A stretch of 52,164 bases of DNA, taken from the NCBI RefSeq assembly GCF_001748285.1, contig NZ_BDGT01000039.1, forward strand, positions 1-52,164, written 5' to 3'. Origin of the DNA: Thermogemmatispora onikobensis. GTDB taxonomy: Bacteria; Chloroflexota; Ktedonobacteria; Ktedonobacterales; Ktedonobacteraceae. Under the pieces are notes generated by a model. The model was not told where the DNA came from. It did no database searches and worked only from the letters and a program-made list of their open reading frames with translations. Position numbers and translations under genes: made by a program. Below, in pieces: positions 6,240 to 52,164 of the stretch; the stretch's first letter is position 1; each line of letters opens with the position of its first letter.

Positions 6240-6374
6240 GCAGGGAACACAGGAAAGTGAGTGTGGTGCCCGTTCCTCCCTCCAGGAGAAACGAGGCCAC
6301 CTCACTCAACGTGGCCCGCGAGAGAGCGGACCACACAGGCAGTCGTTGCTTTGGCTGTTCAAGGAGGAAAAGCG

Positions 6375-8273
6375 ATGTCTAGCAACCAGCCGGCAAGGAG
6401 AGCCGGCAGGCTCCTCGTAAGCGTCCTACTGCTGACGAGCCTCGCCGTCAGCGCCGCGCGCTCTCTCTCGACACACACAGCCTACGCCGCCAGTGCCATT
6501 ACCGTGAATGGGGCGACGCGCTATCAGACGATCGATGGCTTCGGCTTCTCCGGGGCCTTTGGCCCCGCTCAGGAGCTGGAGCAGTCACCCAGCAGCACCC
6601 AACGTCAAATTCTGGATCTGCTCTTCAGCACCAGCAGCGGAGCCGGCTTCTCGATCCTGCGCAACTTGCTGCCCTCGGACCAGGCCCACACTATCGAACC
6701 CAATAGCCCCGGGAGTCCAAACGCCACGCCGACCTACGTCTGGGACCACGATAGCTGGGGCCAGGTCTGGCTCTCTAAGCAGGCCCAGAGCTACGGCGTC
6801 ACGCAGTTCTACGGCGACGCCTGGAGCGCCCCCGGCTTCATGAAGACCAACGGCAATGAGACCAACGGCGGCGCCCTCTGCGGCTCACCGGGCGCGAGCT
6901 GCAGTAGCGGCGACTGGCGCCAGGCTTACGCCAACTACTTGCTGCAGTACTACCGCGACTACCTCAGCGATGGCATCCGCCTCACCCAGATCGGCGCCTT
7001 CAACGAGCCAAATCTCTCGACCTACTATTCGAGCATGGTCATGAATCCGACCCAGACCGCCGACTTTGTGGCCATCCTGGGGCCAACGCTGCGCGCGGCG
7101 GGAGTAACGCCACAGGTCGTCTGCTGCGACGGCGAGGGCTGGGACAGCGCCCAAAGCTACGCCAACGGCATCCTCGCCAATCCAACGGCCAATAGCTACC
7201 TCGACCTCTTCTCCAGCCACGGCTATACCGCGCCTCCCACAACGCCGATCACAGGATTGGGCAGCCGCCATGTCTGGCAAACGGAATGGGCCAAGTTCGA
7301 TGCGGCAGACTATAGCTGGGACGACGGCGGCGATGGCTCCGGCTTCTACTGGGCCCAGCAGATCTACACCGGTCTGACCGCCGCCAACCTGAACGCCTTC
7401 TTCTATTGGTGGGGCGTCAACTTCAATGCCAGCGACAATGGCTATCTGATCAATGTGGTCAATGGTACCGTGACGCCAGCCAAGCGCCTCTGGAGCTTCG
7501 CCAACTATAGTCGCTTTGTGCGCCCCGGAGCGACGCGCATCGGCGCCACCAGCAGCGATACTACACTGGAGGTGACGGCTTTCCTCAACGCCAATGGGAC
7601 GCTGGCCATCGTGGCCCTCAATACCTCCTATAGCGCGGTACCGGTGACGCTTTCGCTGCAGGGCCTCACCCTGCCCACCAACGCAAGCGCCGTGCCCTAT
7701 GTGACCGACGCCAGCCATAATACAGAGGCTCAGGCGCCGTTGACCGTGCAGAATAATAGTTTCAGTGCCACGATTGCCGCCCGCCAGCTGGTGACCTACG
7801 TGATCGCTGGCAGCTCCTCAGCGACGCCTACGCCCGCACCTTCTCCAACGGCGGGACCCTCGCCTACTCCTTCACCTACCGCAACACCAACAGCGACCGC
7901 GGCCCCCACTCCAACGCCAACGCCTTCCCCAACTCCGGGAGCGGGCACCAGCTGCGCGATCCATTATGTGGTCAACTCGCAGTGGCCTGGGGGCTTCAGT
8001 GCCCTGATCCAGATTACCAATACGGGGCCGACCCCGATCAACGGCTGGCAGCTTCAATTCACCTTCCCCAACGGGCAGACGATCACTCAGGGCTGGAACG
8101 GCTCCTTCAGTCAGAGCGGCAGTACAGTCACGGTGACCAATCTCTCATACAATGCCACAATCCCGGCAGGCACCACGCTCGGCGCCTCGCCCGGCTTTAA
8201 CGGGACCTGGAACGGCAGCAATACCCCGCCCACAGGGTTCAGACTGAATGGCGTCAATTGCACCACTACCTAG
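6375..8273 (+). CDS. Secreted GH30-family glycoside hydrolase with C-terminal CBM2
   Basis: A 632-residue exported enzyme. Signal peptide: residues 1-40 (RR, hydrophobic core LLVSVLLLTSLAVSA, cleavage probably after AYA). Catalytic (beta/alpha)8 and beta-sandwich region: about 41-470, starting YQTIDGFGFSGAFGP, which is typical of GH30. The acid/base is Glu211 in FNEPN and the nucleophile is Glu304 in QTEW. A Pro/Thr-rich linker (about 475-525) leads to a CBM2 module (about 527-632) with conserved tryptophans (QWPGGF, NGWQL, QGWNG). GH30 members act on xylan, beta-1,6-glucan or glucosylceramide; a xylan-type substrate is a guess. The ATG at 6375 has AAGGAGGAAAAGCG directly upstream. Confidence 0.92.
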   Translation: MSSNQPARRAGRLLVSVLLLTSLAVSAARSLSTHTAYAASAITVNGATRYQTIDGFGFSGAFGPAQELEQSPSSTQRQILDLLFSTSSGAGFSILRNLLPSDQAHTIEPNSPGSPNATPTYVWDHDSWGQVWLSKQAQSYGVTQFYGDAWSAPGFMKTNGNETNGGALCGSPGASCSSGDWRQAYANYLLQYYRDYLSDGIRLTQIGAFNEPNLSTYYSSMVMNPTQTADFVAILGPTLRAAGVTPQVVCCDGEGWDSAQSYANGILANPTANSYLDLFSSHGYTAPPTTPITGLGSRHVWQTEWAKFDAADYSWDDGGDGSGFYWAQQIYTGLTAANLNAFFYWWGVNFNASDNGYLINVVNGTVTPAKRLWSFANYSRFVRPGATRIGATSSDTTLEVTAFLNANGTLAIVALNTSYSAVPVTLSLQGLTLPTNASAVPYVTDASHNTEAQAPLTVQNNSFSATIAARQLVTYVIAGSSSATPTPAPSPTAGPSPTPSPTATPTATAAPTPTPTPSPTPGAGTSCAIHYVVNSQWPGGFSALIQITNTGPTPINGWQLQFTFPNGQTITQGWNGSFSQSGSTVTVTNLSYNATIPAGTTLGASPGFNGTWNGSNTPPTGFRLNGVNCTTT

Positions 8274-35665: not shown

Positions 35666-37126
35666 TCAGGCCAGGCTGCAGCTCACGCCGTTAACGCTGA
35701 AGGACGTCGGATTCGCATTGGCTGTAGTCCAGGTGCCATTGAAACCGGGGGCCGGGCTGACACTTGCACCGGCTGCCACGCTGCCGTTATAGGAAGCGTT
35801 GGTCACCGTCACCGTGCTGCCCGACTGGCTGAAAGTCCCATTCCAGCCCTGGGTTACCGCCTGCCCGGACGGGAAAGTGAAGGTCAGCCGCCAACCGTTC
35901 CAGGCTGTCGTTCCCGTGTTGGTGATCGTCAGACTGGCGGTGAAGCCACCCGGCCACTGAGCCGTCACCGTATAGCTCACGCGGCAGCTCGTGCCAGCGG
36001 ATGCCGTCGGGGTCGGCGTCGGTGTGCGCGTCGCTGCTGCCGTTGGCGTCGGTGTTGGCGTGCGCGTCGCGCTGGCGGTTGGCGTCGGGGTCGGCGTCGC
36101 ACCGCCGCTGGAACCGTTACCGCTCACGATACCCACCCCGGAGTAGGTCGTCACCTCATTGATGAGGTCGCTGACCGGATCAAGGGTGTAATTGTAGGGA
36201 GCCGTTGTAAAGGTTCCGACCTGGGTAATGTCGACCGTCGCCCCGCCGTAGTCGTTGCCGCGAGCATTGGCGAAGCCATCCTGGGGGCTATCGCCGGTCG
36301 TCGTCAGGGCAACATCGACGTTACGAAAGACGTTGTTCTCAACCAGCACCTGGGCGCCCATGCGCGAATGGATGGCGCTGCCATCTACGTTCTGGTAGTA
36401 GTTGTTGTAGATGTGGCCAGTGCCAAAGCGCAGGCTGGGCAGGCGCGAATTAACACTATAGAACCAGTTGTGATGGTAGGTCACATGGAGATGACCAGTG
36501 TCCTCCGAGGCATTCGAGTCAGAGTGGCCCACCAGCGAGACCTTGTAGTGGTCGTGCAGGCGGTTCCAGGAGACTGTGATGTAGTCGGAGGCGTGAGTGA
36601 TGTCGACCAGACCATCGTAGTAGTCTTTGCCGTGGTCCATGTCCGAGAAGAGGTTGTTGTGATCGACCCAGACATGCTGCGAGTGCTCGATATGGATGGC
36701 ATCCCCGCTGGTGTTGCCATCGGCGCGCACAAAGGAGATGCTCAAGTTGCGAATGATCACGTTGCTCACATCCTTGAGCGAGAGGCTGATGCCGACCAGC
36801 GAGGCCGTGGAACCCACACCGATGATGCTGGTGTTGGAGCCAACATCGACATCGGTGTCGCCCGTGATCGTGCCGCTAACGTAGACGATCTTGGGCGAGG
36901 AACCTTTGACAGCGTTTTGCAGAGCAGAAAGCGTGCTGACGGTGGTCACGCTACCGCCGGCGCCACCAGTGGTGCCGGCTCCATAGCCAACAAGCTGATC
37001 AACGGGGGCCGCCGCCGCCGTGTGTGTCCCCAAGAACACGGGTATGAGGGCTAGCCCGCCTCCGACGAGGACGAGCAGCGTCAGGACAATGACCCATAAT
37101 AGCTTCCTGCTTCCGATTCGCTTCAT
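35666..37126 (-). CDS. Secreted pectate lyase (PL1) with C-terminal CBM2
   Basis: A 486-residue exported enzyme. N-terminal signal or anchor: [25 protein letters not shown]. The parallel beta-helix catalytic part (about 45-335) shows the PL1 landmarks [37 protein letters not shown], the Asp/His-rich calcium region, and RLPSLRFG, whose first Arg is the catalytic base. A Pro/Thr/Ala linker with near-identical PTPTPTA units leads to a CBM2 module (about 385-486) like that of the GH30 enzyme at 6375. It would cleave pectate outside the cell. The ATG at 37126 has AAGGAGG 9 nt upstream; the frame to 37204 is open but not needed. Confidence 0.93.
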
Positions 37127-37291
37127 GCGCACATTCCTCCTTGATGCTTCGACTGAGGGTCCTCCTCTTGCGGCTGCAGCACAGGACGCTATCAGGGCGA
37201 TCAATCGAAAGAAACGAGCACCGCGGTTACTTACAGCAATGAGGCTCTCGCCCTTGTGCTACAGCATAGATCATATCAAATGTGCAGTTTC

Positions 37292-41263: not shown

Positions 41264-41317
41264 AGCATAGGGGTCTTTCTTTGAAAAAAGATTGGAGAAA
41301 GATGAGAATTTTCCAAT
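41264..41317 (-). promoter_or_regulatory. Activator-type site and -10 of the GtrA/PMT operon
   Basis: Minus strand: TTCTCATCTTTCTCCAAT (41308-41291), then 21 nt, then TATGCT (41269-41264). The site is also framed by ATTGGA (41291-41296) and TCCAAT (41312-41317). It is identical over 18 bp to the site at 35183-35200, with the same spacing to the -10-like hexamer. Confidence 0.6.
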
Positions 41318-41402
41318 GAACGGTGGCGGAAGCCCCTCGCTCCCGCTGTCTGCTGCTTGCGCGCCGGGCCCTGCTCCGCCCAAGATGCCCTGTTTTGTCG
41401 AC

Positions 41403-41431
41403 TTGATCTAGCGATGCCGATATAGTACAAT
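41403..41431 (+). promoter_or_regulatory. Promoter of the three-gene defence-like operon
   Basis: TTGATC (41403-41408), 17-nt spacer, TACAAT (41426-41431). Predicted start near 41438. The TTG at 41431, which opens the longest frame, lies inside the -10 and therefore cannot be the start codon. Confidence 0.65.
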
Positions 41432-41487
41432 TGGCGACAGGCATCACGGTTGCGATGTGCGTCAGGTCCGCTAAGGAGCAATTTCCT

Positions 41488-44400
41488 TTGAGTGGTTCGG
41501 GTAGTGATCCTTCAGACCCGGTAGCCTTTCCTCCATCCGAGCAGCCGCCCCGTCGACACCGGCCTCACGAGGAGGAGCAGGCCCAGTGGCCAGCTTCTCA
41601 TATTGATCTTGTGCAACATCCCCAAGAGGGTAGCCACCCCAAACCGCCAGCCGAGGGCGTTGAGTCGCTGACCGGGTTGGCAGCTCCCATCTCTTCCCCA
41701 AAAGTCCTAGCCGCTTGGGAGCAGGGTGTTTCCTGGCGAGCAGGGCCGCCCGATTTCGGCGCTGATCCCGAGGTGGTGCGGGCGGTGGTGGAGGGTGAGC
41801 GCCTCTCGTACGCTTTTCTGCTGAATCCGACCTTTGCTGCTGAGGTCTCGCTCATTGATCCTTTGCCCCATCAGCGCATGGCCGTCTATGAGCATATGCT
41901 GCTGCAGCCGCGCCTGCGCTTTCTGCTGGCGGACGACGCCGGGGCGGGGAAAACGATTATGACTGGCCTGTATATCCGCGAGATGCTCAGTCGCCGCCTG
42001 ATTGGGCGTGTCTTGATCGTGCCGCCGGCGGGCCTGGTTGGCAACTGGCAGCACGAGCTGCGCTCGCTGTTTAATCTGCCGTTCCGCATCGTGTTGGGCA
42101 GCGAGGCGCGCGAGGGCAATCCTTTTGTGGGGCCGGCGAGCGATCTGCTGATTGTGAGCGTCGATACGCTGGCGGGCGAGCGCCTCTTTCGGCGGCTGCA
42201 GGAGCCGGAGGTCGAGCCATACGATCTGGTGGTCTTCGATGAGGCCCATAAGCTGAGTGCGAGCTACGATAGCGATGGGCGCCTGCGCGCGACGGAGCGC
42301 TATCGCCTGGCTGAGGCCCTGGCTGGCATTCCCACGGATGACGCGCGCTGGTCGCTGTCGTGGAGCTGCCATCATGTGTTGTTGTTGACGGCGACGCCCC
42401 ATATGGGGAAGGCTGACCCCTATTATTGTCTGTGGCGCTTGTTGGAGCCAGAGCTGCTTTCGACGCGCCAGGCTTTCGAGCAGTTTCCGGCCCAGGCACG
42501 CCGGCGCTATTTCCTGCGCCGCGTGAAGGAGGAGCTGGTGACGCTCGATGGGCGCCCGCTTTATCCGCCGCGCATCGCGACGACGCTGCGCTACAAGCTG
42601 AGTCCCGCCGAGCAGGAGTTATATGAGGCCACGACCGCCTATATTCGCACGACCTATAACCGCGCGCTCCTTTTGAATCGTGAGGCGGCCCGTCTGGCGA
42701 TGAGCGTTTTTCAGCGTCGTCTGGCCAGTTCGACCTATGCTCTGCTGCGCTCGCTGGAGCGACGGCTGAGGCGCCTCGATGAGTTGATCGCCCAGGTGCG
42801 CCAGGGCGAGCTGCCGCTCTCGCGCCTGCATCAGCTTCAGGTTCAGGCGGCTTCCTCTCGCCTGAGCGATCCGCTGGAGACGAAGACCGCCGATGAGGAG
42901 GAGAGTGTGGCGGGTGAGGAGGAGCACGAGCGGGTGGAGCAGGAGATCCTGCAACTGGTGCTGGCTGCGTCGCTGCAGGAGTTGGAGGCGGAGCGCGCTC
43001 AGGTGGCCGGCCTGCTGCAGCAGGCTCGTCGGGTCTATGAGCAGGGGGCGGAGGCGAAGTTTGAGAAGCTGCGCGAGGTGTTGCGCGATCCGCGTTTCGC
43101 TGGCGAGAAGTTGATTATTTTTACGGAGCATCGCGATACGCTGGTGTTTTTGCAGGGGCGTCTGGAGGCGCTGGGCTTTACGGGCCAGCTGGCGCTGATC
43201 CACGGTGGGATGACCTATACGGAGCGCGAGCAGGCGGTGGCGTTTTTCCGCAGGCCGCTGGCCGAGGGCGGGGCGCGCTATTTGCTGGCGACGGATGCCG
43301 CCGGCGAGGGGGTCAATCTGCAGGTGGCCTGGCTGCTGGTGAACTACGATCTGCCCTGGAATCCGGCCCGTCTGGAGCAGCGCATGGGGCGCATCCATCG
43401 CTATGGCCAGCGCCACGATTCGGTTTACATTATCAATCTGGTGGCTGGCAATACGCGCGAGGGCTATGTGATGGAGCGCCTGCTGGAGAAGTTGGAGGCG
43501 ATCCGTCAGGAGCTGGGCAGCGATAAGGTCTTCGATGTGATTGGGCGCCTGCTTGAGGGTGTGTCGCTGCGCGAGTATATGGAGCGTGTGGTGCTGGGGC
43601 CGGCGGAGGAGACGGAGGAGATCGGGCGGCGTCTGGAGGAGTCGCTGACGGCCCAGCGGGTGCGCGCCGCGCAGGAGGAGGAGCGTCGCCACTATGGGCT
43701 GAGTGCGGAGCCGGGGGCCGATGCGGTCAGGCGAGAGCTGCCACGTCTGCGTCAGGAGCTGGAGCGCGAGGGCTATCGTCGGGTGCTGCCGGGCTATGTG
43801 CGGGCCTTCGTGGAGCGGGCGGCGCCCCTCCTCGGGTTGAGGATCGAGGAGCATGGCGATGGGACGTTCGCCCTGCATGAGCAGACTCCGGGGGCGCTGA
43901 CCTGGTTGGAGCCAGCTCTGGAGCGCTATCCGCCGCGCTGCCGGGCGCGTCTGACGGTGACTCCGCCGCGCGCTAATGAGGAGGCGATCTTTCTCTATCC
44001 AGGCGAGCCGCTCTTTGATCGGCTGCGTGATCTGCTCTGGGGGCGCTATGGTGAGGAGGCCGGGCGCGGGGCGGTCTTTGTTGATCCGATGGCGCGCCGT
44101 CCGTATGTCTTCTCGCTGTTGCGCCTGGCGGTGCGGCGCGAGGCTGAGCCGGGACTGCGGGCGTTGCAGCACCCCGAGCTGGTGCAGGTGACGCTGGTCG
44201 GACTTTGTCAGGAGGAGGATGGGACGCTCAGGCAGTGCCCGGCGGAGCAGCTGCTGCTCTTGCGCGCCGGTGGAGGCGAGCAGCAAGCGCGGGCGCGACA
44301 GGTGCTGCAGCAGCTGGGACCGCGCTGGTCGGAGTTGACGGCGCGGGCGCTGACCTTTGTGCGCGAGACGATCGGTGGCCGCTTGCTGGCCGAGCGGCGG

Positions 44401-45096
44401 GAAGCGCTGCTGGGAACAGTGAGGGAGCGGCGTGCGTTTTTGGAGCGGGCTTTTACCTATCAGGAGGGGGAGCTGGCCGAGCGGCGCCGGCGCTTGTATG
44501 AGAAGGTTCAGGCCGGTGATGGGCGGGCGAAGGGGGAGCTGACGCGCGTGAAGGCTCTACAGCAGTCGCTGCAGCAGAGGCGGGCGGCAGCTCTGGCAAC
44601 GCTGAGCCGTGAGCCGGAGCTGTTGGCGCTGAGCGAGGTGAGTCTGCTGGCGCAGGCGCTGGTCCTGCCTTCGACTGATCCCGAGGATGAGCAGCGCTAT
44701 GCGGCAGCGGTGGAGGAGATGGCGATGCGGGTGGCACGCGCGTATGAGGAGGAGCGTGGGGCGCTGGTGTGGGATGTGTCGACGCCGGAGAAGGCGCGGG
44801 CCGCCGGGCTGGAGTCCTGGCCGGGCTTCGATTTGCTCTCGCGGCGCCCTTCGGGCGAGGAGCGGGCGATCGAGGTGAAGGGGCGTGTCGGGACTGGCCC
44901 GATTGAGATGACGGAAAATGAGTATCGGCGCGCGCAGAATCTGGGTGCAAAATATTGGTTATATTGCGTTTTCGAATGTGAGAAGCTGGCTCCGGTGCTG
45001 CGGCGCGTTCAGAATCCGCACGCGAAGCTGACCGCCTATCCAAAGGGCGGGGTGCTCTTTTCGCCGACGGATATTCAGCGCGCCGCCGAGGAGTGA
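41488..45096 (+). CDS. SNF2-family helicase/translocase with C-terminal DUF3883
   Basis: A 1202-residue protein. The N-terminal 110 residues are Pro-rich. The SNF2 ATPase follows: Walker A DDAGAGKT (Lys155), DEAH box at 251-254, LTATPH (motif III), then the helicase-C part with GGMTYTEREQAV, LLATDAAGEGVNLQ and QRMGRIHRYGQ. A long charged middle region includes coiled-coil-like stretches. The C-terminus carries a DUF3883-like domain with Asp1115 and Glu1129-Val-Lys1131. The start is TTG at 41488, since AAGGAG lies 9 nt upstream. It should translocate along DNA as the motor of a defence or restriction complex with the next two genes (inference). Confidence 0.92.
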   Translation: MSGSGSDPSDPVAFPPSEQPPRRHRPHEEEQAQWPASHIDLVQHPQEGSHPKPPAEGVESLTGLAAPISSPKVLAAWEQGVSWRAGPPDFGADPEVVRAVVEGERLSYAFLLNPTFAAEVSLIDPLPHQRMAVYEHMLLQPRLRFLLADDAGAGKTIMTGLYIREMLSRRLIGRVLIVPPAGLVGNWQHELRSLFNLPFRIVLGSEAREGNPFVGPASDLLIVSVDTLAGERLFRRLQEPEVEPYDLVVFDEAHKLSASYDSDGRLRATERYRLAEALAGIPTDDARWSLSWSCHHVLLLTATPHMGKADPYYCLWRLLEPELLSTRQAFEQFPAQARRRYFLRRVKEELVTLDGRPLYPPRIATTLRYKLSPAEQELYEATTAYIRTTYNRALLLNREAARLAMSVFQRRLASSTYALLRSLERRLRRLDELIAQVRQGELPLSRLHQLQVQAASSRLSDPLETKTADEEESVAGEEEHERVEQEILQLVLAASLQELEAERAQVAGLLQQARRVYEQGAEAKFEKLREVLRDPRFAGEKLIIFTEHRDTLVFLQGRLEALGFTGQLALIHGGMTYTEREQAVAFFRRPLAEGGARYLLATDAAGEGVNLQVAWLLVNYDLPWNPARLEQRMGRIHRYGQRHDSVYIINLVAGNTREGYVMERLLEKLEAIRQELGSDKVFDVIGRLLEGVSLREYMERVVLGPAEETEEIGRRLEESLTAQRVRAAQEEERRHYGLSAEPGADAVRRELPRLRQELEREGYRRVLPGYVRAFVERAAPLLGLRIEEHGDGTFALHEQTPGALTWLEPALERYPPRCRARLTVTPPRANEEAIFLYPGEPLFDRLRDLLWGRYGEEAGRGAVFVDPMARRPYVFSLLRLAVRREAEPGLRALQHPELVQVTLVGLCQEEDGTLRQCPAEQLLLLRAGGGEQQARARQVLQQLGPRWSELTARALTFVRETIGGRLLAERREALLGTVRERRAFLERAFTYQEGELAERRRRLYEKVQAGDGRAKGELTRVKALQQSLQQRRAAALATLSREPELLALSEVSLLAQALVLPSTDPEDEQRYAAAVEEMAMRVARAYEEERGALVWDVSTPEKARAAGLESWPGFDLLSRRPSGEERAIEVKGRVGTGPIEMTENEYRRAQNLGAKYWLYCVFECEKLAPVLRRVQNPHAKLTAYPKGGVLFSPTDIQRAAEE

Positions 45097-45153
45097 GCTG
45101 CTTGCTCCTATGGTATTTCTTTCCCCAGTATATCGCTGTTAAGGAATATGGTT

Positions 45154-48100
45154 ATGCATGAGGAGCGTCGCCTGATTGAGGTCGATTTCCCTTTGAAGCA
45201 GACGTCTCTTGATGCGGTGCATGAGAAGAATGTGCGCCACGGGCATCTGTCAACGTTGCATATCTGGCCGGCGCGCCGTCCCCTGGCGGCCTGTCGCGCG
45301 GCCCTGCTGACGGCTTTGCTGCCGGCCCCGGAGTCGGAGCAGCAGCGGCGCCAGTTGTTGCAGCGCATTGCCGGACGAGTGAAAGATCCGACGCGCCAGC
45401 GCCAGCGGCAGGGGGCGCGTCGTCTGGAGCATCAGGAGGAGACTGAGGGGGGGGTCCTGCACTGGGGACGGGAGACGGATGAGGCGCTGGAGCCGTTTCG
45501 CCAGGAGATTCGGGCGGCTCTCGGCGGGCGGGCGCCGCGGGTGCTTGATCCGTTCGCTGGCGGTGGGGCTATTCCGCTGGAGGCCATGCGCCTGGGCTGC
45601 GAGGTGACGGCCATCGATCTGAATCCGGTGGCCTGGTTTCTGTTGAAGTGCACGCTGGAATATCCCTGGCACCTGGCCGGGGAGCGGCGCCGGCTGCCGG
45701 ATTTTGTGCTGGGCTGGCGCCCTTTTATGGAGGCTTATCTGAAGGCTCAGGGCCTGAAGGGAACGAGGCTGGAGGCGGCGCTAAGGCAGCTGGGAGTGAA
45801 TGGAGCAGGCGAGGGAGCAGAAGCGGAGGAGTCGCCACGACAGCATGAGTTAACTGGTCTGCAGGTCGCTGTGAGTCTGGAGGCCGAGGCGGCCTGGCAT
45901 GTGCGTGCCTGGGGCGAGTGGGTGCTGCAGCGTGCGCGGGCGGTGCTGGCAGGCTACTATCCGACGGTCGATGACAGGCCGACGGTGGCTTACCTGTGGG
46001 CGCGAACGATGCGCTGCAAGAATTGCCGGGCGACGGTGCCGCTGCTCAAGACGCGCTGGCTGGCCAGGACGGGGAAGAAACGGGTGGCGCTCAAGATGGA
46101 GCCAAACGCTGAGCGGACAGGCGTGGTCTTCGAGATCTGGGAGGATGTGCCGCTGCCGACGGGGACGGCCCAGGAGCGCCGGGCTTTTGAGCGCCGCGTG
46201 GGCGGGGGGACGATGTCGCGCACAGGGGTGACCTGCCCCTGCTGCGGGACGGTGATCAAGATGGAGGATATCCGCTTCGAGGGGATGGCGGGCCGCCTGG
46301 GAACAGTGCTGACGGCGGTGATCGTCGAGGGCAAGCAGGGGAAGGAGTATCGCTTGCCGACGGAGGAGGAGCGCCGCGCCGCCGAGGAGGCGGCTGACGC
46401 GCTGCCGGCCCTGTTTGCGGCGATCCCTTTCGGTCTGCCAGAGGAGCCTTTGCCCCGCGGTGGCCCGGGGGCCAGCCGTGCTTTTTCGGTGGATGGCTAC
46501 GGCTTCTCGCGCTGGCATCAGCTCTTTACTCCGCGCCAGTTGCTGGCCCTGGGGACCTTCGTACGCGAGACGCGCGCCGCACGCGAGGAGCTACGCGCCC
46601 TGGGCTACCCACCGCACTGGGTGGAGGCCATCAGCGCCTATCTGGCGCTGGCGATTGATAAGCTGGCTGATTATGGGGCGGCACTCTGTACGTGGCATGT
46701 GAGCGGGGAGAAGATGAGCCACGTCTTTGTGCGCTTCTCTCTGCCAATCAGTTGGGACTACGCAGAGCTTAATCCGATCTCCAATTCTACAGGTAACTAT
46801 CGGGCCTGCCTTACATGGGTCAGTGACGTCTTAGAGCATCTCTTGCGCGCAGCAACAGGCTCCCCGCAGCCACGTGTCTTGTGCCAGTCAGCTCTCACCG
46901 TCTCAGTCGAGCCAGTTGACCTGATTTTAACAGATCCTCCCTACTACGACGCCATCCCCTACTCCGACCTGATGGACTTCTTCTACGTCTGGCTGCGGCG
47001 CAGCCTGCACGGCCTCAGCCCCGAGATCGACGCCGTCTTTGCCGCGCCGCTAGCCCCTAAGTGGGATCATGAGCGCAACGACGGCGAGCTGATCGACGAC
47101 GCCAGCCGCTTCGGCGGCGACCGTCAGCACTCGCGGGCCGCCTACGAAGATGGCATGTACCGCGCCTTCCAGGCCTGCTACCGCGCCCTACGCCCCGATG
47201 GGCGCCTGGTCATCGTCTTCGCCCACAAGCAGCCTGACGCCTGGGAGACCCTGGTCGCGGCCCTCATCCGCGCCGGTTTCGTCGTCGAGGCCAGCTGGCC
47301 CATTCAGACCGAGATGAGCAACCGCACACGCGCCCTCTCCTCCGCCGCTCTGGCCTCCTCCATCTGGCTGGTCTGCCGGCGGCGGCCCGAGAGCACGCGC
47401 CCCGGCTGGGACAAGACCGTCCTTGCCGAGATGCGCCAGAACATCACTGAGCGCCTGCGCCACTTCTGGGACGTCGGCATTCGCGGCCCCGACTTCATCT
47501 GGTCGGCCACCGGCGCGGCCCTCGAAATCTACAGCCGCTACCCGGTTGTCAAAAAAGCCGACCAGCCGGGCCAGCTCATGAACATCAGCGAATTCCTGCG
47601 CCACGTCCGGCGCATCGTCGTCGACTTCATGGTTGGGCGCGTCCTCAGCCAGAGCGGGGACAGCATCAGCGAGCTGGACGACCTCACCGCCTACTACCTG
47701 TTGCACCGCTATAGCTTCGGCTTCGAGCCGGTACCCAGCGGCGTCTGCATCCTCTACGCCATGTCCTGCGGCCTCAGCGATCGCGACCTCGTGCAGCGCT
47801 ACGACCTGCTCAGCCGCGGCACCCCAGCCAGCGCCAGCAACGGCAGCACCCCCGACGAGGACGACGAGGAGGAGGACGAGGGCGCCGAGGAGGTCAACGG
47901 GAGATCAGGTGAGAGCAGCGGCAGCAACCTGCGCCTCAAAAGTTGGCAGCAGCGTCGTCAGCCGCACCTCGGCCAGAGCGTCAACGGCAAAGACGACGAG
48001 CCACCCCCGCTCATCGACCAGGTCCATCATCTCATGCACCTGTGGAAGGCCGGCGACGTCCGCCCCGTCAACGACTACCTCGACCACCAGATGCTCGACC

Positions 48101-48288
48101 ACAAGCCGCTCTTCCGTGCCCTGCTGCAGGCCCTCATCGAGCTGGCCGCCGAGAGCAGCGATGAGCGCTCCCTGCTGGAGAGCATCAGCAACTATCTCGA
48201 CCAGCGCAAAGGCTTGCCGAACCAGAGCCTGCCATTCAGCCAGGTCCAGGCAAGGCCCTCTGTTCCATCCCGCAGCAGGCCAGAATAG
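45154..48288 (+). CDS. DUF1156 adenine-specific DNA methylase with Zn-ribbon
   Basis: A 1044-residue DNA methylase of the COG1743 type. It begins with the DUF1156 signature (LIEVDFPLKQTSLDAVHEKN, HLSTLHIWPARRPLAACRA). The SAM site is VLDPFAGGGAIPLEA (132-138 for DPFAGGG). A zinc ribbon follows, with cysteines 288/291 (CKNC) and 361/364 (CPCC). The catalytic motif is DPPY at 594-597 (LILTDPPYYDAIPYSD). The C-terminal third has an acidic, low-complexity stretch (DEDDEEEDEGAEE). ATG 45154 is preferred over 45148, which is only 2 nt from the AAGGA. It probably methylates adenine for self-recognition; the target sequence is unknown. Confidence 0.93.
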   Translation: MHEERRLIEVDFPLKQTSLDAVHEKNVRHGHLSTLHIWPARRPLAACRAALLTALLPAPESEQQRRQLLQRIAGRVKDPTRQRQRQGARRLEHQEETEGGVLHWGRETDEALEPFRQEIRAALGGRAPRVLDPFAGGGAIPLEAMRLGCEVTAIDLNPVAWFLLKCTLEYPWHLAGERRRLPDFVLGWRPFMEAYLKAQGLKGTRLEAALRQLGVNGAGEGAEAEESPRQHELTGLQVAVSLEAEAAWHVRAWGEWVLQRARAVLAGYYPTVDDRPTVAYLWARTMRCKNCRATVPLLKTRWLARTGKKRVALKMEPNAERTGVVFEIWEDVPLPTGTAQERRAFERRVGGGTMSRTGVTCPCCGTVIKMEDIRFEGMAGRLGTVLTAVIVEGKQGKEYRLPTEEERRAAEEAADALPALFAAIPFGLPEEPLPRGGPGASRAFSVDGYGFSRWHQLFTPRQLLALGTFVRETRAAREELRALGYPPHWVEAISAYLALAIDKLADYGAALCTWHVSGEKMSHVFVRFSLPISWDYAELNPISNSTGNYRACLTWVSDVLEHLLRAATGSPQPRVLCQSALTVSVEPVDLILTDPPYYDAIPYSDLMDFFYVWLRRSLHGLSPEIDAVFAAPLAPKWDHERNDGELIDDASRFGGDRQHSRAAYEDGMYRAFQACYRALRPDGRLVIVFAHKQPDAWETLVAALIRAGFVVEASWPIQTEMSNRTRALSSAALASSIWLVCRRRPESTRPGWDKTVLAEMRQNITERLRHFWDVGIRGPDFIWSATGAALEIYSRYPVVKKADQPGQLMNISEFLRHVRRIVVDFMVGRVLSQSGDSISELDDLTAYYLLHRYSFGFEPVPSGVCILYAMSCGLSDRDLVQRYDLLSRGTPASASNGSTPDEDDEEEDEGAEEVNGRSGESSGSNLRLKSWQQRRQPHLGQSVNGKDDEPPPLIDQVHHLMHLWKAGDVRPVNDYLDHQMLDHKPLFRALLQALIELAAESSDERSLLESISNYLDQRKGLPNQSLPFSQVQARPSVPSRSRPE

Positions 48289-48453
48289 GGCAGCCGCACT
48301 TTCCTGACCTGCCGCCCGACCTGCTCCTGCTCCGATCGCCGCAGTGGGCCAGGCCGGAGCGGGCAGGCTGGCCTCAGTCAGCCCCAGGAGAAAGTACCCT
48401 GATTGGAGGAGATGTACGAGCAAGACAGGCAAAGAAGAGGGAGAGAGGAATCT

Positions 48454-51400
48454 ATGAGCACCAGTACACACCGGTGGCATCCCTGGCATGGGATCGTGCG
48501 CCTGCGCGACGAACTGCTGAGTGGCGACCTCAGCCTGGCCAGCTTTGCCGCCGACCTCTATGACGTCGTCATGCAGCGAGGCAACTCGCTCTACCGCGAG
48601 CCGGACGAATTCTTCTCCTTCACCTATCCCACGGCCAACATGCGCCGTCTGGCGCGGGAAGTCATGCAGCGCCTGGCCGGGCGCAGCGATCGTGCTGTCT
48701 ACCAGCTCGAGCTATACTACGGCGGCGGCAAGACCCACACCCTCATCACCCTCTATCACCTGGCTCGTCGGCCCGAGAGGCTTCCCAAGCTGCCCGCCGT
48801 CGAAGAATTTCTGGCAGCCATCGGTCTGAGCGCCCTGCCGCGGGCGCGCATCGCCGTGCTGGCCTTCGACAAGCTTGACCCAGAGAAGGGCCTGGAGATC
48901 CCGGGACCTGGTGGCGAGCGACGTCGATTGCGCCATCCCTGGAGCATCCTCGCCTACCAGCTCGCCGGCAGCGAAGGGCTGCGCCTGATCCACGGCGAGG
49001 ACCAGGACGCGGAGCGCGAGACGCCGCCGGCGGAGGAGCTGCTTGCCAACCTCCTTTCGCTGCCGGCCCGCCAGGGAGATGCCACCCTGGTTCTCATGGA
49101 CGAGGTCCTCATCTATGTCCGAGAGAAGGTCGGCCTTGATCCTGTCTGGCGCTGGCGCATGAGCGACTTTTTCCAATATTTGACGCAGGCCGCCAACAAG
49201 GTGCCCACCTGCGCCGTCGTCGTCTCGCTGCTGGCCAGCGACCCGCGCAAGCGCGACGAGCTAGGGCGCGAGCTGAGCAACGAGCTACAAGAAATCCTCG
49301 GACGCCAGCGCGAGCCGGTTTTCCAGCCGGTCGAAAAAGAGGACCTTGCCGAGGTGCTGCGCCGGCGCTTCTTCACTCCCGACTCCATCCGCAACCGCGA
49401 CCTTTTCCGTCCCCAGGCCATCTTTGCCGTCAACGGCATCGCCTCCCTTGTCGAAGAGGTTGCCAGGCATCGTCACGAACTTGAGGAGCGCATTGTCAAC
49501 AGCTATCCCTTTCATCCCGATCTCATCGACCTCTTCTACGGCAAATGGACCGACCTGCAGACCTTCCAGGGTACGCGCGGCACGCTGCGCAACTTTGCCC
49601 TGGCCTTGCGCGACGCCGCCCGCTGGGACCCCTGCCCGCTGGTCTCCGCCAATGCCTTCATTGGCCCGCCCAACGGCAGCGGCCTCTCGGAAGTCGCCCA
49701 CGAGCTGGCCACCACCGCCGAAAACGAATCGTACGAGGGCCGACGCCAGGCCTGGAGTGCGATCCTGGAGAGCGAGCTAGAGAAGGCGCGCCAGATCCAG
49801 CGCTCCTTTCCCTCATTGCGGCACTTTCGCGAGGTCGAGCAGGCGGTTTTTGCCACCTTCCTGCACTCGCAGCCCGTGGGCAAAGATGCCAACCTGCATG
49901 AGCTGCTGCGCCTCATCGGCCAGATGAGTCCCGATCGCATTGCTCTGACGCAGGCCCTGAAGCAGTGGACCGAGGTCTCCTGGTTTCTCGACGAGAGCAC
50001 CTGGCATGAGAGAGAGAAACTGGACGAGGAGGGCCAGGAGCTGCCCAAGGTCTGGCGTCTGGGGGCGCGACCCAACCTGCGTCAGATGCACCACGATGCC
50101 TGTCAGAACATCAGTCCCGAGGCTGTCGAGCACCATCTGCGCCGTGAAATCGAGGAGTGTCGCTATCTCTTCTCGACCAGTGGCGAGCGGCATCCGCCGC
50201 GCGTGCACAAGCTTGCCCGGGAGCCGCGCGATGTAGATGACGACGGTGATCTACATCTGGTCATCCTGGGGCCAGAAGGGGCCTGCCGTCCCGGGCATCC
50301 CTCGGAGCTGGCCCTGCGCATCCTGAACGAGAAGAGCGGTCCCGAAGCGCCGCGCGTCTATCGCAACGCCGTCATCGTGGTAGCTCCCTACACGCGCGGG
50401 CTGGATGGTGCCCGCGAGGCCCTGCGCAGCTATCTGGGCTGGCTCGACGTTGAGGAGCGACTCAAGCGCGAAGAGCAGGAGGTCGACAGCAATCGCCAGG
50501 CGCTGCTGGAACGCGAGAAGAAAGAGAGCGAGACGCGCCTCAAGGAGCTGGTGCGCGAGAGCTACTGCATTGTGGTGGCGCTCTCGGTCAACAACGAGGC
50601 GGAGGCATTTCAGATCAAGCTCACCGAGAGCAATCTGTACGCCTCGCTCAAGGCTGATGAGCGTGTGCGCATCTCGGAGCAGCCGATCGAGGCAGAGGCT
50701 CTGCTGCCGGGCGGCCCCTATGAGCTATGGCGTCCGGGCGAGAGCGCGCGGCGTTACAAGGATGTGCTGGAGGCCTTCGCCCAGTTCGTGCACCTGCCGC
50801 GTATTGTCGACCGCCAGGCCATCAGGCAGACCCTGATCAATGGCTGTCTGCAGGGACGCTTTGTTTTTCGTCAGCCGCGGCCCGATCGCAGCTATCGCAC
50901 CTTCTGGCGGCAGCGTCCCGATGAGGAGGTGCTGCGCGATCCGGCGCTAGAGGTGGTCTTGCCCGAGGCGGCCAGTCTGACAGAGCTGGCGCCTGAGCTG
51001 TTGCAGCCTGGGGTGTTGCCAGAGCTGTGGGAGGGTGAGGAGCTGTCTCTCAGTCGGCTCTCTATCTACTTTGGCGGCGGTCAAGTCGTCCATGAGCCGC
51101 GCGATGGTTACAGTGAGCTGTTGGCCATTCCGCAGGCTGAGCCGCGGGTGATCAGGCAGGCGGTGCGCGAGGCGGTGCGGGGGCGACAGCTCTGGTTATT
51201 GAGCGGGCAGAGCAGCTTTTTGGGGGAGGAGGTGGCTGAGGATGTGCTGTTGAGCGAGGGGGCACGTCTGAGGCGCCCGCCGGAGCCGTTGGCGGCCAGT
51301 GAGATTCTGCCTGAGCGGCTGCCGGAGGCCTGGCGTGGTGAGCAGACGACGGCGCGGGAGATCGCTGATGCGTTGGCCAGGCGTCTGGGTGTGCCCTTGC

Positions 51401-51846
51401 CCTGGCTGACGGTGCGGGCGGTCATTGAGGATGCTTTTCAGCAGCGTCTGCTGGAGCGCAGCGTCGACTCAGGTCCCTGGCCGTGTGACTATGCGGGGGC
51501 GCGGGCGGTCAAGATTGTGGTGACGCGCCAGGAGCCGGTAGTGGTGGCTGGCCTGCAGAGCACGCTCATGGGGGCGGCAGGTGTGAGCGCCGCGCGTGAG
51601 CAGCCCACGGCTTATGTGTTGCCGCTGCGCGCGGAGGCGACGCTTGAGAGCGGCGAGCTTCAGAATTTGGCTGAGGTAGTTGGCGAGCTGTTTAAGATCT
51701 GTGGGGACTACAATCTTACTCTGCGTCTTCAGGTTGGGATCGAAGTTGAGCCGGCCAGCCGTGTGACGGGGGAGGCCTTGCAGCGTTTGAATGCTGTGTT
51801 GGGCGAGGTGGCACCTGGCTTGAGGTTGCGCTCTTCTTCTGCCTGA
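48454..51846 (+). CDS. DUF499 AAA+ family ATPase
   Basis: An 1130-residue protein of the COG1483/DUF499 type. It starts WHPWHGIVRLRDELLSGDLSLASFAADL and runs into Walker A ELYYGGGKTHTLITLYHLA (GGGKT from residue 90). Walker B is LVLMDE (212-217), and VSLLASDPRKRDELGRELSNELQEILGR follows. The large C-terminal part is helical with charged segments (REKKESETRLKELV). The ATG at 48454 is preferred to 48403, with GAGAGGAA just upstream. It shares a strand with the helicase and methylase and ends before a strong terminator, which closes the operon. Its precise task, perhaps sensing or DNA loading, is unknown. Confidence 0.92.
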   Translation: MSTSTHRWHPWHGIVRLRDELLSGDLSLASFAADLYDVVMQRGNSLYREPDEFFSFTYPTANMRRLAREVMQRLAGRSDRAVYQLELYYGGGKTHTLITLYHLARRPERLPKLPAVEEFLAAIGLSALPRARIAVLAFDKLDPEKGLEIPGPGGERRRLRHPWSILAYQLAGSEGLRLIHGEDQDAERETPPAEELLANLLSLPARQGDATLVLMDEVLIYVREKVGLDPVWRWRMSDFFQYLTQAANKVPTCAVVVSLLASDPRKRDELGRELSNELQEILGRQREPVFQPVEKEDLAEVLRRRFFTPDSIRNRDLFRPQAIFAVNGIASLVEEVARHRHELEERIVNSYPFHPDLIDLFYGKWTDLQTFQGTRGTLRNFALALRDAARWDPCPLVSANAFIGPPNGSGLSEVAHELATTAENESYEGRRQAWSAILESELEKARQIQRSFPSLRHFREVEQAVFATFLHSQPVGKDANLHELLRLIGQMSPDRIALTQALKQWTEVSWFLDESTWHEREKLDEEGQELPKVWRLGARPNLRQMHHDACQNISPEAVEHHLRREIEECRYLFSTSGERHPPRVHKLAREPRDVDDDGDLHLVILGPEGACRPGHPSELALRILNEKSGPEAPRVYRNAVIVVAPYTRGLDGAREALRSYLGWLDVEERLKREEQEVDSNRQALLEREKKESETRLKELVRESYCIVVALSVNNEAEAFQIKLTESNLYASLKADERVRISEQPIEAEALLPGGPYELWRPGESARRYKDVLEAFAQFVHLPRIVDRQAIRQTLINGCLQGRFVFRQPRPDRSYRTFWRQRPDEEVLRDPALEVVLPEAASLTELAPELLQPGVLPELWEGEELSLSRLSIYFGGGQVVHEPRDGYSELLAIPQAEPRVIRQAVREAVRGRQLWLLSGQSSFLGEEVAEDVLLSEGARLRRPPEPLAASEILPERLPEAWRGEQTTAREIADALARRLGVPLPWLTVRAVIEDAFQQRLLERSVDSGPWPCDYAGARAVKIVVTRQEPVVVAGLQSTLMGAAGVSAAREQPTAYVLPLRAEATLESGELQNLAEVVGELFKICGDYNLTLRLQVGIEVEPASRVTGEALQRLNAVLGEVAPGLRLRSSSA

Positions 51847-51914
51847 GTATGGAGGATGGATCTTTTCCTTTTGCTCGTTGCCATCTGCTGAGTAAGGAGA
51901 GCAGAGAAGCAGAG

Positions 51915-51950
51915 TGAGCGCCGGGTGGCATGCCCGGCGCTCATGTTTTA
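51915..51950 (+). terminator. Rho-independent terminator of the defence-like operon
   Basis: TGAGCGCCGGG (51915-51925) and CCCGGCGCTCA (51933-51943) form an 11-bp perfect stem around a 7-nt loop, followed by TGTTTTATT. It lies 68 nt past the DUF499 stop. Confidence 0.92.
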
Positions 51951-51985: not shown

Positions 51986-52164
51986 CTTTCAGTATCCACC
52001 TTTCAGTATCCACAAGCGGATCGAGTCCCCTGCCACGGGGGTAACCTATCCTACTCCTGACCTCAATAATGCCCCTTTCAGTATCCTCTAGCGGATCGAG
52101 TCCCCTGCCACGGGGGTAACCTATCCTACTCCTGACCTCAATAATGCCCCTTTCAGTATCCTCT
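51986..52164 (-). CRISPR. CRISPR array 2, trailer end, opposite orientation
   Basis: Repeats on the minus strand lie at 52000-52036 and 52075-52111, with a partial one from 52150 to the window edge. The first differs from array 1's repeat at one base. The second and third read CCTCT where the first has CCACA. Two 38-nt spacers (52037-52074 and 52112-52149) are identical to each other. A 14-nt copy of the repeat end (51986-51999) adjoins the first repeat. The array reads in from the right, so this is its trailer; the leader lies beyond the window. Confidence 0.95.

Follow-up and report, generated by a model that had tools for sequence, protein, structure and literature searches.

The operon and its family

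The window analysed here is a stretch of 52,164 nucleotides (nt) from Thermogemmatispora onikobensis (Chloroflexota), which comprises the whole of contig NZ_BDGT01000039.1 (C39) and ends within a CRISPR array. Between 41.4 and 51.85 kb it carries three large co-directional open reading frames (ORFs) on the + strand, hmaA (41431-45096; 1221 amino acids when counted from the first TTG), hmaB (45148-48288; 1046 amino acids) and hmaC (48403-51846; 1147 amino acids), that together encode a helicase, a methylase and an ATPase. The gap between hmaA and hmaB is 52 nt and that between hmaB and hmaC about 115-166 nt, so that there is no space for a fourth gene. A better start for HmaC is the ATG at 48454, which is preceded by a good ribosome site (GAGAGAGGA) and is most likely where translation begins. 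Behind hmaC lies an intrinsic terminator with a 14-pair stem and a T run (51914-51944, + strand), the top-scoring among 11 matches in a terminator scan for which 6.3 were expected in shuffles. The original prediction, made from the sequence alone, had described three very large same-strand genes with one promoter and one strong terminator, and the genes and the terminator were recovered as such. The promoter is a different matter: promoter-like sites are present upstream of hmaA (+ strand, cluster 41281-41431), but there are three of them (41281-41309, 41398-41426 and 41403-41431), all weak with 9 out of 12 matches each; in the region, 4 such sites were observed against 1.2 expected.

The three proteins matched the PADLOC profiles for HmaA (E = 3.9e-169, 563 bits), HmaB (E = 2.4e-118) and HmaC (E = 2.2e-89), all within one locus. 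The Pfam domains are SNF2/Helicase_C and NOV_C (DUF3883) in HmaA, DUF1156 and N6_N4_Mtase in HmaB and DUF499 in HmaC; together with the conserved cysteines described below they bear out the earlier domain calls (SNF2 plus DUF3883, DUF1156 Zn-ribbon methylase, DUF499). Judged by these profiles, the operon is an Hma system, alias Type-1 'BREX-related' (BR) system. Hma was first put forward by Payne et al. (2021, PMC8565338), who described a helicase-methylase-ATPase unit from 26 phyla as putatively defensive; it figured as a candidate in that study, which reports tests of Zorya III, Hachiman II and Lamassu II. The family was re-described in 2026 as DUF499-centred BR systems, with Type-1 BR consisting of these three genes only and being found in 2446 taxa (Rakesh & Krishnan 2026, PMC12839542), and the combination of a DUF499 ATPase, restriction-modification (R-M) components and an SNF2 helicase-DUF3883 fusion had already been outlined in 2013 (Anantharaman et al., PMC3710099). 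The operon is thus of the helicase-methylase-ATPase defence type that had been predicted, yet belongs to a described system and not to an unnamed predicted-defence neighbourhood; what appears to be new are the signs that HmaB houses a specificity module that is exchangeable and may be combinatorial.

Several other identities were rejected. The DrmD model of DISARM reached 337 bits at a cut-off of 610, and the operon contains neither drmA nor drmB nor any further gene, in keeping with the earlier statement that it is not DISARM. The same holds for the predicted absence of a PLD or DUF3780 gene: the models of the DUF499-DUF1156-PLD/DUF3780 type (Type-2 BR) remained far under their cut-offs (92/1200, 189/1000 and 151/1100 bits), the HKD nuclease motif (H.K....D) was sought in the helicase and not found, and the operon contains no DUF3780 gene or other fourth ORF. 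Neither PglZ nor iSTAND/BrxB occurs among the three genes of the operon (the flanking genes were not scanned with PglZ models), and BREX and Type-3 BR were rejected as nothing but the three genes lies between the promoter and the terminator.

Exchange of HmaB segments

HmaB (45148-48288, + strand) is a DUF1156 methylase with intact catalytic motifs, motif I (DPFAGGG) at 45547 and DPPYY at about 46933. The DPPYY motif is a mark of amino-methyltransferases, which argues for such an activity rather than that of a 5-methylcytosine (m5C) enzyme, and the methylated base is probably N6-adenine; a published N6-methyladenine motif for a DUF1156 methylase or for Thermus pVV8 was not found in the open-access literature. 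The Zn-ribbon cysteines C290, C293, C363 and C366 (46015-46245, + strand) are invariant across nine relatives.

A comparison with T. aurantia made clear that the three proteins do not diverge alike. HmaA and HmaC of the two operons are 99.3% and 99.6% identical and HmaB only 91%, because residues 500-598 are 42% identical while the remainder of the compared region is at 99%. This exchangeable cassette 2 (46645-46941, + strand; core residues 504-529) is located directly ahead of the DPPY motif. Two smaller patches switch as well, loop 1 (residues 437-453; 46456-46506, + strand) and patch 3 (residues 715-742; 47290-47373, + strand), the latter co-varying with cassette 2. The Zn-ribbon, a conserved portion of the insert proposed to recognise the target, is not among the switching parts. 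The cassette type of T. aurantia is that of T. carboxidivorans (79%), despite the more distant backbone of T. carboxidivorans.

The same pattern was observed in two further sets of near-identical operons. One is the additional Hma of the genus, which is of the HEPN type; here HmaA is 99.1% and HmaC 98.6% identical, and HmaB carries swapped segments. In the plasmid loci of Thermus thermophilus (n = 10), the identity is 96.8% for HmaA, with the differences confined to the 60 N-terminal residues of the stop-to-stop frame, 99.2% for HmaC, where only the last residues vary, and about 54-55% for the HmaB loops. All four combinations of loop 1 and loop 2 alleles are present in Thermogemmatispora and likewise in Thermus, which indicates that the two loops are exchanged separately. 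Among the Thermus strains, AA2-2 and SNM6-6 have one loop 1/loop 2 pair in common, and so do HB5002 and SNM3-3. Among 66 HmaB proteins, loops 1 and 2 are the alignable windows that track the backbone least (Spearman rho 0.13-0.25, against a median of 0.66; a linker near residues 195-235 that could not be aligned was set aside in this ranking), and the similarities of the two loops are uncorrelated (rho -0.03). As the sequences are related and the pairs non-independent, these correlations are descriptive, the independent replicates being the three lineages. Within the 56 HmaB pairs with a backbone more than 85% identical, loop 1 is below 50% identity in 36 and loop 2 in 34. The same scan revealed no comparable exchange in HmaA, and in HmaC it flagged only a poorly aligned stretch that is taken up below. 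The loop alleles form recurring classes, such as ALGFRVQ.YG, RNFWT..YG and GRAFSV..YG, found across phyla on backbones only 35-50% identical; loop 2 of the window and its counterpart in T. thermophilus HB8, for instance, resemble each other (65%), with backbones at 36%.

These observations suggest that the HmaB loops alone may decide which DNA sequence Hma recognises. In BREX, PglX alone determines methylation and phage targeting (PMC11341690), and BR systems have core components in common with BREX (PMC12839542). Given this precedent, and since HmaA and HmaC remain unchanged while the HmaB loops change, we infer that HmaB would be the sole specificity factor.

Some points weigh against this. 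The ATPase has been proposed to join in invader recognition in Type-1 BR (Rakesh & Krishnan, PMC12839542), HmaC residues of about 901-950 also track the backbone poorly, although in a badly aligned stretch, no DNA methyltransferase is among the PDB matches listed for the HmaB model, and the loop variation could instead be a response to phage inhibitors. Along the first line, Hma would function as described for Type-1 BR in that survey, with invader recognition residing mainly in HmaC (its alpha+beta, winged helix-turn-helix and C-terminal RRM-like domains) and HmaB marking self DNA only. The 901-950 stretch is indeed poorly conserved between families (the window near residue 906 was considered as a second specificity region and rejected because of its poor alignment), but within the three near-identical operon sets whose HmaB loops differ, HmaC is 98.6-99.6% identical, and an independent HmaC target would leave the host unprotected once the HmaB target alone changes. 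We therefore consider recognition by HmaC unlikely.

The structure model of HmaB (AlphaFold2; pLDDT 82.5, pTM 0.83) bears on the location of the variable segments, all three of which are mostly loops. Two further stretches, residues 195-235 and 890-923, are low-confidence, poorly conserved linkers in Thermogemmatispora. A Foldseek search of the model against the PDB gave weak Rossmann methyltransferase matches only, none at E <= 0.001, and hence no DNA-bound template; that the loops contact DNA is a prediction. Their exposure and low confidence in the model would also suit an arms race in which phages encode methyltransferase inhibitors and the loops do not read DNA at all, and there is a precedent in the phage protein Ocr, which binds the target recognition domain of BrxX in BREX (PMC11842806). 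The recurrence of the loop classes across phyla, on such divergent backbones, is rather what is expected for a limited set of recognition solutions. In addition, the loops sit between methylase motifs I and IV. In alpha-class methylases this is the site of the target recognition domain. We hold the inhibitor explanation to be improbable, somewhat more so than recognition by HmaC, and favour the loops of HmaB as the part that would read the target.

The nuclease-like domain and the N-terminus of HmaA

HmaA (41677-45096, + strand) is an SNF2/RapA-like helicase, with intact helicase motifs, and has a C-terminal DUF3883/NOV_C nuclease-like domain. The latter (44710-44988, + strand; Pfam 3.3e-16) is PD-(D/E)XK-like and its G-F-D...E-V-K motif is intact, with D at 44830, E at 44872 and K at 44878. 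The [IL]-E-V-K element and the preceding D were found at near-constant spacing in 31 of the 31 complete trios, a set that comprises Chloroflexota and one Thermus locus. DUF3883 was named 'a novel REase domain' in 2013 (PMC3710099), and the domain is predicted to be an active PD-(D/E)XK nuclease fused to the helicase; the earlier view that the unit contains no nuclease does not hold.

The start of HmaA probably lies downstream of 41431. In codons 1-100 of the frame (41407-41706), the proportions of nonsynonymous (pN) and synonymous (pS) differences are about equal, both in comparison to T. carboxidivorans (pN 0.08-0.16, pS 0.11-0.14) and to T. tikiterensis (pN 0.41-0.52, pS 0.53-0.54), and in the comparison to T. 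carboxidivorans pN/pS drops to about 0.1-0.25 thereafter. Given this late onset of constraint, translation would start at TTG 41677 or GTG 41773, 80-115 codons downstream, and position 41431 would be in, or just ahead of, the 5' untranslated region of hmaA. The leader (41407-41706, + strand) is open, apparently non-coding, and seems to be the remnant of an N-terminal helix-turn-helix (HTH) domain that some relatives retain intact: the helicases of loci L123, L131 and L132, from the clade of the window, carry an N-terminal HTH_3 domain (E about 1e-10, over the curated cut-off), HmaA of T. tikiterensis has an apparent, sub-threshold HTH_3 remnant, and the copy in the window is eroded. Canonical Type-1 BR helicases have a TUDOR-like N-terminus (PMC12839542), which alignment did not reveal on HmaA of the window, and a term search of the main text of that survey found no mention of an HTH on the Hma helicase. 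The HTH_3 in place of TUDOR would represent a small domain variation and not a new kind of system.

HmaC and the distribution of the trio

The coding part of hmaC (48454-51846, + strand) specifies a DUF499 AAA+ ATPase that has an intact Walker A motif (GGGKTH, about 48721) and lacks the N-terminal HEPN domain. Its profile score of about 299 bits compares to about 1000-1440 bits for canonical HEPN-type members. In the HmaC tree, the window and the other Thermogemmatispora copies fall in an 11-row clade (support 100) whose HmaC copies are without HEPN, and all HEPN-bearing rows constitute one separate group; by its position in this tree, the operon belongs to a non-HEPN branch of Hma.

The gene order A-B-C on a single strand is found in 30 of the 31 complete trios. 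Both gaps are below 400 nt in 14 of them, which are thus as compact as the operon of the window, and about half carry extra intergenic sequence. In the Thermus plasmid loci (L053-L062) the helicase gene is inverted and adjoins ParB, and Fic, HicAB/RelE-like and two HTH genes are located around and between the methylase and ATPase genes. Accessory genes are therefore common and not obligatory, so that the trio is not always accompanied by further genes. Constant accompaniment had been named beforehand as what would speak against a three-gene system, and this check does not refute it. The HmaC frame is broken by one TAA inside the match of genome G029 (L039, 2468-5842) and split in L052 (4904-8224), as a result of decay or assembly error. 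HmaB relatives are also encoded on 45 IMG/VR 'viral' contigs (L131-L175), which may be prophages, satellites or chromosomal sequence binned wrongly.

A defence island

Directly behind hmaC, a CRISPR array whose repeat (GTGGCAGGGGACTCGATCCGCTAGAGGATACTGAAAG) is 37 nt long runs from 51986 to 52164, where it is cut by the contig end. The initial candidate of a plain tandem repeat was rejected. The first spacer of the array in the window is present twice. The same 37-nt repeat ends contig C31 of the genome, with ten more repeats there (L010, 2229-2910). In T. aurantia and T. carboxidivorans, a CRISPR array starts about 140 nt past hmaC and is followed by a Druantia-type DruE1 helicase (L051, 17024-22597; L047, 20663-23389), the counterpart of which in the genome of the window sits on C31 (65056-70575). 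The shared repeat ends and the location of DruE make it probable that the array connects C39 to C31. Hma, CRISPR and Druantia together make up a defence island in Thermogemmatispora, a context in favour of a defence role for the operon. The unit had been described as closed, and this stands in so far as there are three genes with no room for a fourth; on the outside, the array follows at once, with the Druantia helicase beyond it in the relatives.

A housekeeping or regulatory assembly of a RapA-like helicase and an orphan methylase is, considering the above, highly improbable. RapA is the nearest solved structure to HmaA in a sequence search of solved structures (which gave no meaningful relative for HmaB or HmaC), but the RapA model reached 130 bits at a cut-off of 576, so that the proposed check for unrelated housekeeping families gave no RapA match over cut-off, whereas HmaA scored far higher with its own profile. 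The conservation of the trio and of its nuclease motif, the patchy distribution (HmaC is present in 72 of 301 genomes of the phylum) and the defence-island context likewise argue against it.

The genes upstream of the operon are ordinary (GtrA, mannosyltransferase). A second complete Hma operon, of the HEPN-DUF499 type, is present in the same genome (contig C29; L009, 2635-12819). The window also encodes two polysaccharide-degrading enzymes, one GH30-like and the other a pectate lyase (6261-8273 and 35666-37204), each with a C-terminal CBM2.

Proposed mechanism

We consider it quite probable that the operon constitutes an R-M-like Hma defence system in which the target of both self-methylation and restriction depends on HmaB only, by way of two exchanged loops. 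HmaB would bind a short DNA motif and methylate the host copies, probably at adenine, so that methylated motifs are spared. HmaC, a BrxC-like AAA+ ATPase, would probably assemble the complex or load it onto DNA. An unmethylated motif would, via the ATPase of HmaC, engage HmaA, the SNF2 translocase with its PD-(D/E)XK DUF3883 domain, which then translocates and cleaves. If the motif is indeed chosen by HmaB alone, the replacement of one allele would redirect self-marking and restriction at the same time.

The near-identical operons, with hardly any differences outside two loops of HmaB, represent a natural experiment, from which HmaB is predicted to be the subunit that gives Hma its specificity, like PglX in BREX. 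At somewhat better than even odds, specificity would moreover be combinatorial, with the two loops drawn from limited, cross-phylum allele sets, recombined independently and each reading part of the target, so that HmaB alone would redirect methylation along with restriction, with HmaA and HmaC left as they are. In that case, a recognition code for Hma could be derived by pairing loop alleles with methylomes. With the operon itself, a defence family that is widespread and has hardly been tested gains one more member, from its non-HEPN branch.

Comparison with known systems

The DUF499-DUF1156-PLD anti-phage proteins (NCBIfam NF042962-4; Type-2 BR) include a homologous ATPase and methylase, and differ in the HKD motif and DUF3780 that the operon lacks. 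Type-1 BREX resembles Hma in that a single methylase, PglX/BrxX, is proposed as the only specificity factor; the Hma operon is without PglZ, BrxB, BrxA and BrxL, and its target loops would be nested in the methylase instead of being C-terminal. The HEPN-DUF499/SNF2-DUF3883 R-M operons (PMC3710099) share the fusion of the helicase to a DUF3883 restriction endonuclease (REase), the R-M components and the DUF499 ATPase; the second Hma on C29 is of the same HEPN type, unlike HmaC of the window.

With Type-1 BR (PMC12839542) the operon has in common the DUF499 ATPase, the single-Zn-finger DUF1156 methylase, the SNF2 helicase with C-terminal REase and the lack of a fourth gene. HEPN on the ATPase is optional there (about 56%), and the window is like the about 44% of Type-1 taxa without it; an active PD-(D/E)XK REase on the helicase was reported for 79% of taxa, and the motif present in the window would place it among these. 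The difference lies in the N-terminus of the helicase, which is not TUDOR-like and which in some members of the branch carries the HTH_3 that is eroded in Thermogemmatispora. Hma as defined in 2021 (PMC8565338) has the same three proteins in the same gene order, and its PADLOC profiles are those matched by the window; HmaB was called an m5C enzyme there, whereas the DPPYY motif of the window points to an amino-methyltransferase that probably modifies N6-adenine.

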